A stretch of DNA of 64,000 bases, from positions 1 to 64,000 of IMG/VR virus record IMGVR_UViG_3300008267_000014; one strand, given 5' to 3'. Shown in pieces: positions 235 to 18,162 of this stretch (its first letter is position 1; each line of letters opens with the position of its first letter). Made by a program: the position numbers and the translations under genes. The DNA is from a virus. The notes beneath the pieces are model-generated. The model was given only the letters and a program-made list of their open reading frames with translations, did no database searches and had not been told where the DNA came from.

Positions 235-723
235 ATGGCAGACTTACTAATGAAAATGCCGGTCCCTTATGAGCCGAAAAGACAGAATAGATTTATTCTT
301 AGATTTCCATCAGAATTAGGAATAAATGAATGGTATGTTGAATCAGCATCAAGACCAACTGTTACTGTTAACCCTGTTGCAATCCCATTTTTAAATACCG
401 AAACTTACGTTGCGGGTAAATTTACATGGGGTACTATTAGTGTTAAATTTCGTGACCCTATTGGACCTTCAGCTACTCAAGCGTTAATGGAGTGGGTTAG
501 GTTATGTGCCGAATCAGTTACAGGTCGTATGGGTTACGCCGCAGGTTACAAGAAAAACGTCGATTTAGAAATGTTAGACCCGACTGGTGTTGTAATTGAA
601 AAATGGATACTTGAAGGTACATTTTTATCGAGTGTTAACTATGGTAGTTTGGGTTATGGTAATGATGGTTTGGTTACTATTGATGCTGTTTTAAGACCTG
701 ACCGTTGTATATTAGTATACTAA
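235..723 (+). CDS. Tail tube protein (T4 gp19 family)
   Basis: A 162-aa protein, almost exactly the length of T4 gp19 (163 aa), which stacks as hexamers to form the inner tube of a contractile tail. The pattern fits the family: an N-terminal 'NRFILRF' strand, a central segment with 'NTETYVAGKFTWGTISVKFRDP' character where T4 has its 'VAGDRTFDDWTVTV' strand, and a C-terminal beta-rich half ending 'VTIDAVLRPDRC'. It is the first of a run of tail genes (gp26-like, tape measure, hub), which supports the call. The start follows an A-rich leader without a Shine-Dalgarno sequence. A related tube-fold protein such as gp54 is possible but less likely given length and position. Confidence 0.8.
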   Translation: MADLLMKMPVPYEPKRQNRFILRFPSELGINEWYVESASRPTVTVNPVAIPFLNTETYVAGKFTWGTISVKFRDPIGPSATQALMEWVRLCAESVTGRMGYAAGYKKNVDLEMLDPTGVVIEKWILEGTFLSSVNYGSLGYGNDGLVTIDAVLRPDRCILVY

Positions 724-743
724 AAGATTGATTTTATTAAATT

Positions 744-787
744 AAATCCATATATTTATCAAATAATCTTGATAGATATATGGATTT
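744..787 (+). promoter_or_regulatory. 19-bp hairpin burying the homing endonuclease start codon, with late-promoter motif in its left arm
   Basis: AAATCCATATAT (744-755) is perfectly complementary to ATATATGGATTT (776-787). The pairing continues inward through one T-G pair (756/775) and six more pairs (757-762 with 769-774), leaving a 6-nt loop at 763-768. The ATG at 780-782 is fully paired. The octamer TATTTATC (753-760) lies in the left arm. A transcript started about 6 nt downstream of it would lack the left arm and free the ATG. Confidence 0.7.
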
Positions 788-2366
788 TTCTTTTTTCACA
801 GTTGATAATAAATCGGGCTATAAAACAAAAGAAAGTTGGTTATCTAAAAACCATCCTCAATTATATACTGATATAATCGAGTATTGTGAAAATTTAAAAA
901 TAAATCTTTCATTTAAGGAAAAGATTTATTTTTTTTTCAACAAATTAACTGAAAGACCTAAATGTTTGACTTGTAATTCTGAAATAAAATTCAGAGATAG
1001 GTTTGATAAACCATACGGTGAATTTTGTTCTGTATTATGTATTAATTCTAATAAAACTGAAATGTTGAAGAGAATTAAAAAAACGATGAATGATAATTAT
1101 GGGGTCGATTATTATCCCCAACATGATGAGTTCTTAACTAAACAAAAGTTAAGTAAATTATTAAAATTTGGTGATGAAAATTATAATAATCATGAAAAGG
1201 GTAAAAATACTAAATTAGAAAAATATGGGGATTTTAACTATAATAACCATGACAAATATAAACAAACTTGTATTGATAAATACGGAAATGATAATTTCAG
1301 TAAATCAACTGAATATAAAAATCAAACAATAACTTCTTTTAAAAAAACTTATGATAATATCAATATAATAGATGTTATTAAAGATAATGTAACAATTTTA
1401 TGTGATAAATGTGATTCCTATTACATTGTTACAAAACAATTAATATATGAAAGGAATAAAAGAAATTATGAAATATGTACAGTCTGTAATCCGATTGGTC
1501 AAAACCAACGAAGTGGATATGAAAACGAGATTTGTGATTTTTTTAATGAAAAAAATATAAAGTATATTCCAAATAAAAGAATTTCTTACGGTAAAAGTGA
1601 AATTGATATTTTCTTACCTGATTATTCATTAGGTATAGAATTTAATGGTTTATATTGGCACAATGAATTGTTTAAAGATAAAAATTATCATTTAAATAAA
1701 ACAAACTTGTGTAACGAAAATAAAATCGAATTGATTCATATCTTTGAAGATGAATGGATTTATAAAAAAGACATTGTTAAGTCGATATTAAATAATCGAA
1801 TTGGTTTTTTTTCTAACAAAATATACGCTAGAAAATGTGATATACGTGAAATAAGTTCAAATGACTCTAAAATGTTTTTAAATAATAATCATATTCAAGG
1901 GAATGTTAATTCTAAAGTTAGGATTGGTTTATTTTATGAAAACAACTTAGTTTCTTTAATGACATTTTCTAGTGGTAGAATTATAATGGGAGGTAAAAAA
2001 ACTGAATGGGAATTAAATAGATTTTGTAATCTAATTAATTTTAATGTAATAGGTGGTGCTTCAAAATTATTAAAATATTTTATAAAAAAATATACCCCAG
2101 AAAAAATCATTTCGTATTCTGATATAAGAATATTTAATGGTGGTATGTATGAAAAATTAGGGTTTGTTAAAATTTCACAATCTAAACCTAATTATTGGTA
2201 TATAATTAACGATATTAGAAAACATAGGTTTAATTATCGTAAATCTATCTTAATTAAAGAAGGTTATGATAAGAATTTAACCGAACAAGAAATTATGTTT
2301 AATAGAAAAATTTATAGAATTTATGATTGTGGGAATATAAGGTGGGAATATAATTTAACTACTTGA
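780..2366 (+). CDS. Free-standing homing endonuclease, Vsr-like/EDxHD type with GNAT-like C-terminus
   Basis: A 528-aa protein that interrupts the tail gene order between the gp19-like and gp26-like genes. Visible domains in order: a Cys4 zinc-knuckle-like cluster (C62, C65, C83, C87); three or four repeats of about 20 residues of the form KYGDxNYNNHxK (about 106-190), as in DNA-binding arms of phage endonucleases; a second Cys4 cluster (C208, C211, C233, C236); a Vsr-like nuclease core (about 245-330) with 'EIDIFLPDYSLGIEFNG' followed by 'YWHNE' and 'IFEDEW', typical of the EDxHD homing nuclease group; and a C-terminal domain (about 350-480) with 'GGASKLLKYFIKK' and 'MYEKLGF', which looks GNAT-like. 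Such genes cut phage genomes lacking them and spread by recombination. Its ATG is buried in a hairpin with a promoter motif, suggesting late-only expression. Whether the GNAT-like part is enzymatic is unknown. Confidence 0.75.
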   Translation: MDFSFFTVDNKSGYKTKESWLSKNHPQLYTDIIEYCENLKINLSFKEKIYFFFNKLTERPKCLTCNSEIKFRDRFDKPYGEFCSVLCINSNKTEMLKRIKKTMNDNYGVDYYPQHDEFLTKQKLSKLLKFGDENYNNHEKGKNTKLEKYGDFNYNNHDKYKQTCIDKYGNDNFSKSTEYKNQTITSFKKTYDNINIIDVIKDNVTILCDKCDSYYIVTKQLIYERNKRNYEICTVCNPIGQNQRSGYENEICDFFNEKNIKYIPNKRISYGKSEIDIFLPDYSLGIEFNGLYWHNELFKDKNYHLNKTNLCNENKIELIHIFEDEWIYKKDIVKSILNNRIGFFSNKIYARKCDIREISSNDSKMFLNNNHIQGNVNSKVRIGLFYENNLVSLMTFSSGRIIMGGKKTEWELNRFCNLINFNVIGGASKLLKYFIKKYTPEKIISYSDIRIFNGGMYEKLGFVKISQSKPNYWYIINDIRKHRFNYRKSILIKEGYDKNLTEQEIMFNRKIYRIYDCGNIRWEYNLTT

Positions 2367-2404: not shown

Positions 2405-3157
2405 ATGGAAGAAACGTTAATACAAGCCGCAACTGAAAATTTTAATTTACCTCATGATGTTATTTATTTACCTAGTGGTGGTTCATTTTATAAATCTAAA
2501 AAGAAAAGTGTAAAGGTTGGTTATTTAACCGCCGCTGATGAAAATTACTTATTAAGTAATGGTTCAAAAGAAAACATAGTGATGACATTACTTCGTAATA
2601 AATTGTACGAACATGATATTAGACCTGAAGAAATGTTAGATGGTGATATTGAGGCAATCTTAATCTTTTTAAGAAATAGTTCTTTTGGTCCTGAATATAC
2701 TGTAACTTTAATTGACCCTAAGACTGATAAAAGTTTTTCACACACTGAAATTTTAGATGAATTAAGAATTAAAGAAACTTTAGTTAAACCTGATGAATTC
2801 GGTACATTTACAACTACTTTACCTAAGACAGGTTCATCTGTTAAATTAAAACCTATTACTTTTTTTGAAGGTTTAGAATTAGATAAGATGGCGGATAATT
2901 ACCCTGCTGGTCGTGTTGCACCGTTAATTACTTGGAGGTTAAATAAATATATCGTAGAAGTAAATGGGAATAGTGATAGAAGTATTATATCTCAATTTAT
3001 TGAACAATTACCGATATCTGATTCAAAATATATTCGTAATTTTATACAGGATAACACACCTTCATTAGATTTAAAAAGACAAGTTTTAGCCCCATCAGGA
3101 GAAAAGGTGACGTTTAACGTATCCTTTGGGGTTGACTTTTTTCGCCCTTTCTTCTAA
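2405..3157 (+). CDS. gp26/gp51-family baseplate hub or tail assembly protein (zero-frame product)
   Basis: A 250-aa protein resembling the T4 gp26/gp51 baseplate-hub family. The N-terminus has the 'HDVIYLPSGGSFYK' type opening, followed by 'VGYLTAADENYLL' and a helical segment with 'MLDGDIEAILIFLRNSSFG'. In T4 this family acts in hub assembly next to the tape measure, and here the tape measure gene follows directly. The zero frame ends abruptly with 'DFFRPFF' and a stop at 3155-3157. The +1 frame is open from there to 3296 with plausible protein sequence, so this ORF is probably the short form of a frameshifted pair, like lambda G/GT. The start follows an AATAAAAAAGAA leader without a Shine-Dalgarno sequence. 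Confidence 0.7.
   Translation: MEETLIQAATENFNLPHDVIYLPSGGSFYKSKKKSVKVGYLTAADENYLLSNGSKENIVMTLLRNKLYEHDIRPEEMLDGDIEAILIFLRNSSFGPEYTVTLIDPKTDKSFSHTEILDELRIKETLVKPDEFGTFTTTLPKTGSSVKLKPITFFEGLELDKMADNYPAGRVAPLITWRLNKYIVEVNGNSDRSIISQFIEQLPISDSKYIRNFIQDNTPSLDLKRQVLAPSGEKVTFNVSFGVDFFRPFF
3131..3146 (+). promoter_or_regulatory. Probable programmed +1 ribosomal frameshift site
   Basis: The zero frame reads GTT GAC TTT TTT CGC CCT before stopping 12 nt later. A +1 slip at TTT-C (3140-3143) moves tRNA-Phe from TTT to the better-paired TTC and continues with GCC CTT TCT. The next zero-frame codon, CGC, appears rare in this AT-rich genome and could stall the ribosome. A weak hairpin (TAAAACGT 3164-3171 with ACGTTTTA 3187-3194) follows. 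A -2 slip would reach the same frame with one extra Phe. Confidence 0.55.
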
Positions 3158-18133: not shown

Positions 18134-18162
18134 TTGACAAATTCATATTACTAACCTATAAT
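18134..18162 (+). promoter_or_regulatory. Consensus sigma70-type promoter for the replication module
   Basis: TTGACA (18134-18139) and TATAAT (18157-18162) are both perfect and exactly 17 nt apart. They start 11 nt after the terminator and end 29 nt before the SSB start codon. The same stretch contains TTTG (18133-18136), so it also partly resembles the Bacteroidota TTTG/TAnnTTTG form. Likely early or middle expression by host polymerase. Confidence 0.65.

Follow-up and report, generated by a model that had tools for sequence, protein, structure and literature searches.

The window analysed here, a stretch of 64,000 nucleotides, contains a free-standing homing endonuclease gene (HEG) between a tail tube protein gene and a baseplate hub gene (Table 1), and this locus lies within an 87.8-kb phage genome fragment. 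The HEG product matches the Hef/Vsr-like profile phrog_3339 over the full length (residues 21-525, 7e-117), and its phage relatives are annotated as Hef-like or homing endonucleases. The presence of the HEG varies among relatives at this single tail tube/hub site, with a remnant left in L114. The nearest named isolates are all distant and include Flavobacterium phage immuto and Microcystis phage Mel-JY01; a search of the hairpin DNA described below against named isolates returned no good match.

Table 1. Features of the tail tube/HEG/hub locus in window coordinates, and positions of a HAD-like gene in related loci
Feature	Position	Strand	Remarks
Tail tube protein gene, upstream	235..723	+	phrog_4542 tail tube, 4e-26; conserved neighbour in HEG-bearing relatives
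-35-like hexamer TTGATT	728..733	+	exactly 17 nt before TATATT; 4/6 matches in window
Left hairpin arm	744..762	+	near-invariant AATCCATATATTTAT among relatives
Putative promoter core TATATTTAT	751..759	+	-10-like TATATT overlapping virion-gene element TATTTAT; invariant in HEG relatives
Hairpin loop	763..768	+	holds predicted transcription start 763-764 (from spacing to -10-like/late element)
Right hairpin arm	769..787	+	start codon 780-782 buried inside
Free-standing HEG, 528 aa	780..2366	+	phrog_3339 homing endonuclease, 7e-117
U-tract TTTTTCTTTTTT, terminator-like	785..796	+	directly after GGA of stem; codes for FSFF
Baseplate hub gene, downstream neighbour	2405..3157	+	phrog_150, 7e-12; Pfam T4_baseplate, 1.4e-5
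HAD-like gene	L005:490, L008:835, L011:835, L096:2982, L137:3016, L143:3036, L367:1019		

The start of the HEG is overlapped by a hairpin at 744-787 (AAATCCATATATTTATCAA-ATAATC-TTGATAGATATATGGATTT), composed of 19 contiguous pairs, including one G-U, and a 6-nt loop. This is exactly the structure described in the original prediction, which had also placed the endonuclease ATG inside it, and the ATG was indeed located in the right arm. The stem is AU-rich, with 3 G-C pairs. RNA folding of positions 721-800, which had been proposed as a check, yielded -22.6 kcal/mol (z = -5.3), a stability equalled by none of 200 shuffles. The hairpin is the longest short-loop hairpin across the 64 kb and the only one there with a stem of at least 18 pairs, and no such stem was found in 12 first-order Markov random sequences of equal length. 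A chance origin of the hairpin is ruled out by the fold statistics and the Markov controls, together with its conservation.

In RNA initiated upstream, the HEG initiation region lies under a stable RNA helix, as in T4-type locks. The modelled probability that the ATG is unpaired is 0.0006 in the long transcript of the window, in agreement with the claim that read-through RNA would fold over it, versus 0.77 in a short RNA starting in the loop at 763-764; the respective means over 26 starts of the HEG family are 0.002 and 0.70. The related claim that a transcript starting just after the element would expose the ATG is thus borne out by the model for a start position that is itself predicted. No Shine-Dalgarno sequence precedes position 780, and the AUG itself is paired. 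Bacteroidetes mRNAs dispense with Shine-Dalgarno sequences and the structure of the start region tunes their initiation (PMC6847099), a parallel that would apply here if the host belongs to that group.

A protein search identified 67 relatives of the nuclease. The hairpin is kept by approximately 25 distinct HEG relatives, nearly always at the tail-tube/hub site, and nearly all close relatives (at least 57% identity) lie between tail tube and hub with their ATG under a hairpin. The exception is L016, in which a second nuclease gene stands first and bears the hairpin instead, and in the distant HEGs of L018, L019 and L024, at the same site, the terminator is separate and the ATG is free. Across 24 distinct sequences and 17 counted pairs, pairing is present in 94.3% of cells, compared to at most 57% when the arms are slid by 1-3 columns, and both sides are changed in 10 cells, compared to a shuffled mean of 3.1 (0/500 shuffles as high), these counts being biased towards structure because part of the set was recruited with a DNA pattern requiring the core of both arms. 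The protein-found subset comprises 11 distinct sequences.

Pairs 8/47 and 22/33 are changed on both sides, many other arm changes are one-sided (G-U), with A-U to G-U frequent, and right-arm changes facing T are almost only A/G. In L121, an altered codon (GAA for GAT) is matched by a change in the left arm. Variation falls mostly in the right arm, and the sequences of the inner stem differ among relatives with pairing retained; the covariation check proposed for related phages reveals conserved pairing in which the right arm follows through G-U pairs and some compensatory changes. The left arm hardly varies, which would be expected of an arm that doubles as a promoter, and this near-invariance makes the cross-pairing of arms between equal-spacing relatives uninformative (14.8 pairs with the own arm and 14.6 with the other).

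The left arm contains TATTTATC at 753-760, which had been taken for a variant of an element preceding virion genes. The element is real as a class, with the shorter core TATTTAT(A): in this phage group, TATTTAT precedes 178 of 396 non-HEG gene starts in the sense orientation, compared to 29 in antisense and 24 in shuffles, and it is found upstream of most tail tube genes and in related isolates. The exact sequence TATTTATC was rejected as the element, since it is not enriched in the window (9 found versus 10.8 expected).

Furthermore, one of the hexamers TTTACA, TTGACA or TTGACT lies exactly 17 nt before TATATT at 25 of 27 distinct HEG starts (shuffled expectation 0.5). Among the other nuclease families described below, a -35 box is present in 10/14 members of the Vsr-like family and in 0/30 of the HNH family. 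The tail tube gene has a -35 box with this spacing in 0/79 sequences, and its promoter is preceded in 60 of 79 distinct sequences (L069-L148) by a AAAGTNAA box that is absent from HEG promoters. The single-strand DNA-binding protein (SSB) gene has TTGAC[AT]-N17-TATNNT or a close variant in all 58 distinct relatives, and TATTTAT is no commoner there than by chance. As judged from these motifs, the putative HEG promoter is a composite with features of both the virion-gene and the SSB-gene classes. The late designation originally given to the promoter is uncertain: TATTTAT is shared with virion genes, but the -35 box of the relatives resembles that of a replication gene and the tail tube gene lacks one. 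Both promoter readings would place the start at 763-764, in the loop, a position from which the RNA of the promoter would lack one arm of the hairpin.

Elsewhere in the window, a consensus TTGACA-N17-TATAAT lies before an SSB-like gene (18134-18162), with the same spacing in 58/58 distinct relatives. The phage encodes a 266-aa sigma-70 family factor (L384:13849-14649, G000 about 77.3-78.1 kb; phrog_351, 1.6e-53), which is a candidate reader of one promoter class. Near-identical copies of TTGGTAGGTAATAAAAAA(A)TAGGTATATTTG stand before two consecutive genes (G000 76424 and 76727) and have the look of a repeated Bacteroidetes promoter (TAnnTTTG type).

The hairpin also has the layout of an intrinsic terminator, in that its AU-rich stem runs straight into a U-tract where a transcription unit ends; the first 3.5 kb contain 3 sites of this terminator-like kind (0.5 expected), the hairpin among them. 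Where relatives lack the HEG (most of L069-L148), the position of the hairpin is taken by an ordinary terminator, often AATCC...GGATTTTTT. In L237 the hairpin, with a T9 tract, has outlasted the HEG, and in L114 it persists at the head of a HEG that has suffered a large internal deletion, the promoter element having decayed. Among 481 terminator-like hairpins of related loci, a forward TATTTAT occurs in the left half of 9, and 7 of these 9 stand before HEGs. These comparisons suggest that the hairpin, besides its putative locking of translation, probably serves as the tail-tube terminator, a role that the original prediction had overlooked. Termination may be weak, given the AU-rich stem and a U-tract that is interrupted by codon 4 in several relatives (TTTTCAATTTTTT).

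Two other hairpins were observed in this context. In Microcystis phage Mel-JY01 (L382:4713-4744), the late element occupies the loop of a terminator-like hairpin, which is followed by a T-tract, an SD-like AGGAG and an ATG, placing a putative promoter within a terminator with the ATG left unburied. At 896-933 of the window, a second, almost purely A-T hairpin with a T-run lies towards the 5' end of the HEG coding sequence, recalling the terminators known from inside the T4 HEGs mobE and segF (PMC2988022).

The arrangement is not restricted to the one nuclease for which it had been described. Protein searches identified two further nuclease families in which the left arm carries the element and the ATG lies under complementary arms. 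The HNH/endonuclease VII-like family (~160 aa, 30 distinct starts) has GTTTATCC[AG]TATATTTATNNNNATGGATAAAC; in most cases a separate terminator stands just upstream, and no U-tract follows the stem. Co-variation in this family is weak apart from position -4. By its layout, this family shows a putative ATG lock without a terminator. The Vsr-like family (~300 aa, 10 distinct starts), at the tail-tube site, has AATTCCCATATATTTATNNNNATGGGAATTTTT. The gap between TATATTTAT and the ATG is 4 nt in 25 of 30 HNH starts and 9 of 10 Vsr-like starts, which predicts 5' ends at or adjoining the AUG. A GIY-YIG family is represented by two full-length close members, one of which has a clear hairpin. Applied to any gene, a loose minimum-free-energy test of ATG pairing could not tell HEGs from the rest because of its noise in AT-rich DNA.

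Taken together, these data suggest that stop and start signals for a mobile nuclease gene are combined in the hairpin, a reading to which we assign a probability of about 0.66. RNA reading through from the tail tube gene holds both arms and would fold; part of it would probably stop at the U-tract, and in the remainder the paired AUG of the nuclease would go untranslated. The nuclease would have its own promoter, formed by the -35-like box and TATATTTAT in the left arm, with a predicted start in the loop. RNA from this internal promoter, having no left arm, could not form the hairpin and would evade both stop and lock, exposing the AUG after a leader of ~16 nt.

The reading of the hairpin as a terminator alone, which would end the tail-tube message and contain the ATG because the HEG cassette joined there, agrees with the position and U-tract of the terminators in HEG-less relatives and with L237, where the hairpin persists without the HEG. 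We nevertheless consider it improbable, given that the HNH family has an ATG hairpin with no U-tract and mostly with a separate upstream terminator, and that the ATG stays free in the distant HEGs of L018, L019 and L024, where the terminator is separate. It is more improbable still that 744-787 is a DNA palindrome bound by the nuclease or another protein as an operator overlapping the promoter. I-TevI does bind an operator that covers the late promoter of its own gene (PMC2988022), and palindromes suit dimers, but pairing is kept among relatives where inner stems differ, and the layout recurs in unrelated nucleases whose stems are different, both of which favour pairing over a fixed binding sequence.

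As to the timing of the combined signal, the original prediction corresponds to the logic of T4 I-TevI, segB and mobE, in which a late promoter drives the gene, earlier read-through is silenced and translation is late only. That logic is documented for T4-like phages, and TATTTAT, as the upstream element of virion genes in this group and in related isolates, including most tail tube genes, is consistent with it; however, the 25 of 27 HEG promoters that also have TTTACA/TTGACA-N17-TATATT share this with the SSB gene (58/58) and not with the tail tube gene (0/79). Moreover, the tail tube gene upstream also belongs to the late genes, so that no early read-through is evident and the T4 early-to-late logic is not directly transferable; a switch from early read-through to late release fits poorly in its simple form, and we regard it as doubtful. 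The timing may tentatively be inverted, with a -35/-10 promoter that supplies the nuclease early or at all stages and a hairpin that curbs its overproduction from abundant late tail-tube read-through. This accords with the composite promoter and its 17-nt-spaced -35 box, and with an upstream transcription that is the tail tube's only and purely late, but TATTTAT is invariant too, which a pure -35/-10 promoter would not need, and the HNH family has the hairpin with a -35 box in 0/30. Speculatively, unrelated mobile nucleases may have repeatedly adopted a self-escaping terminator, with near-leaderless mRNAs in the HNH and Vsr-like families and, at the window site, a timing inverted relative to T4 that blocks late tail-tube read-through.

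Lock-and-escape control is established for I-TevI, I-TevII, I-TevIII, segB, Aeh1 mobE, e, soc and 49 (PMC2988022, PMC3014915), reviews on which our comparisons with T4 rest, and the analogy drawn originally with T4 genes whose hairpins are escaped by late transcripts is apt. Among the closest known systems are T4 segB and Aeromonas phage Aeh1 mobE, likewise free-standing HEGs, with RBS hairpins and late promoters, in which a hairpin sequesters the initiation site in upstream-initiated RNA and the position of the promoter leaves its own RNA unable to form that hairpin (PMC2988022). In contrast to these, the locus described here has no Shine-Dalgarno sequence, its AUG is itself paired, the promoter core falls within the left arm, the terminator-like hairpin replaces the terminator of the upstream gene, the nuclease belongs to another family and relatives have a -35 box. 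I-TevI, like I-TevII and I-TevIII, has a hairpin on early/middle RNA and a late promoter just upstream that frees the start (PMC2988022, PMC3014915), but is intron-encoded within early/middle units, whereas this HEG is not in an intron and lies downstream of a late structural gene. The T4 genes e, soc and 49 also have start regions buried in longer transcripts and freed by late ones (PMC3014915), but are genes of the phage itself, with no terminator role in these reviews. In T4 mobE and segF, the terminator lies apart from the promoter and start codon, whereas here all three overlap.

A search of the literature on leaderless or terminator-coupled HEGs found nothing closer. The lock principle is known, and what is new is the overlap of terminator, promoter and AUG, the recurrence across three families of nuclease, a promoter of composite type and mRNAs predicted to be nearly leaderless. 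The analysis extends the idea of hairpin-locked nucleases from T4 to a large group of uncultivated phages, in which a single short element can act as terminator, promoter and start-codon lock, and it provides promoter classes that can be tested in these phages, together with a compact layout for controlling expression in one direction. Furthermore, the layout in three nuclease families suggests strong selection for insulating a selfish gene from the transcription of its neighbour.

Similar arrangements were observed at two genes other than HEGs. In several phages, the start codon of a ~490-aa gene (MSI..SYF.RNNTI; starts at L337:116, L321:284, L277:314 and L305:469) pairs with an arm beside the same promoter element, with GAATTAATTGATATTTAT upstream of ATGTCAATT..AATTC. 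Upstream of the tail tube gene, the ATG of a HAD-like gene (..YYAFDWDDN..) follows the late element by 4 nt, behind a terminator, a spacing that suggests a leaderless late mRNA for a non-HEG gene too.
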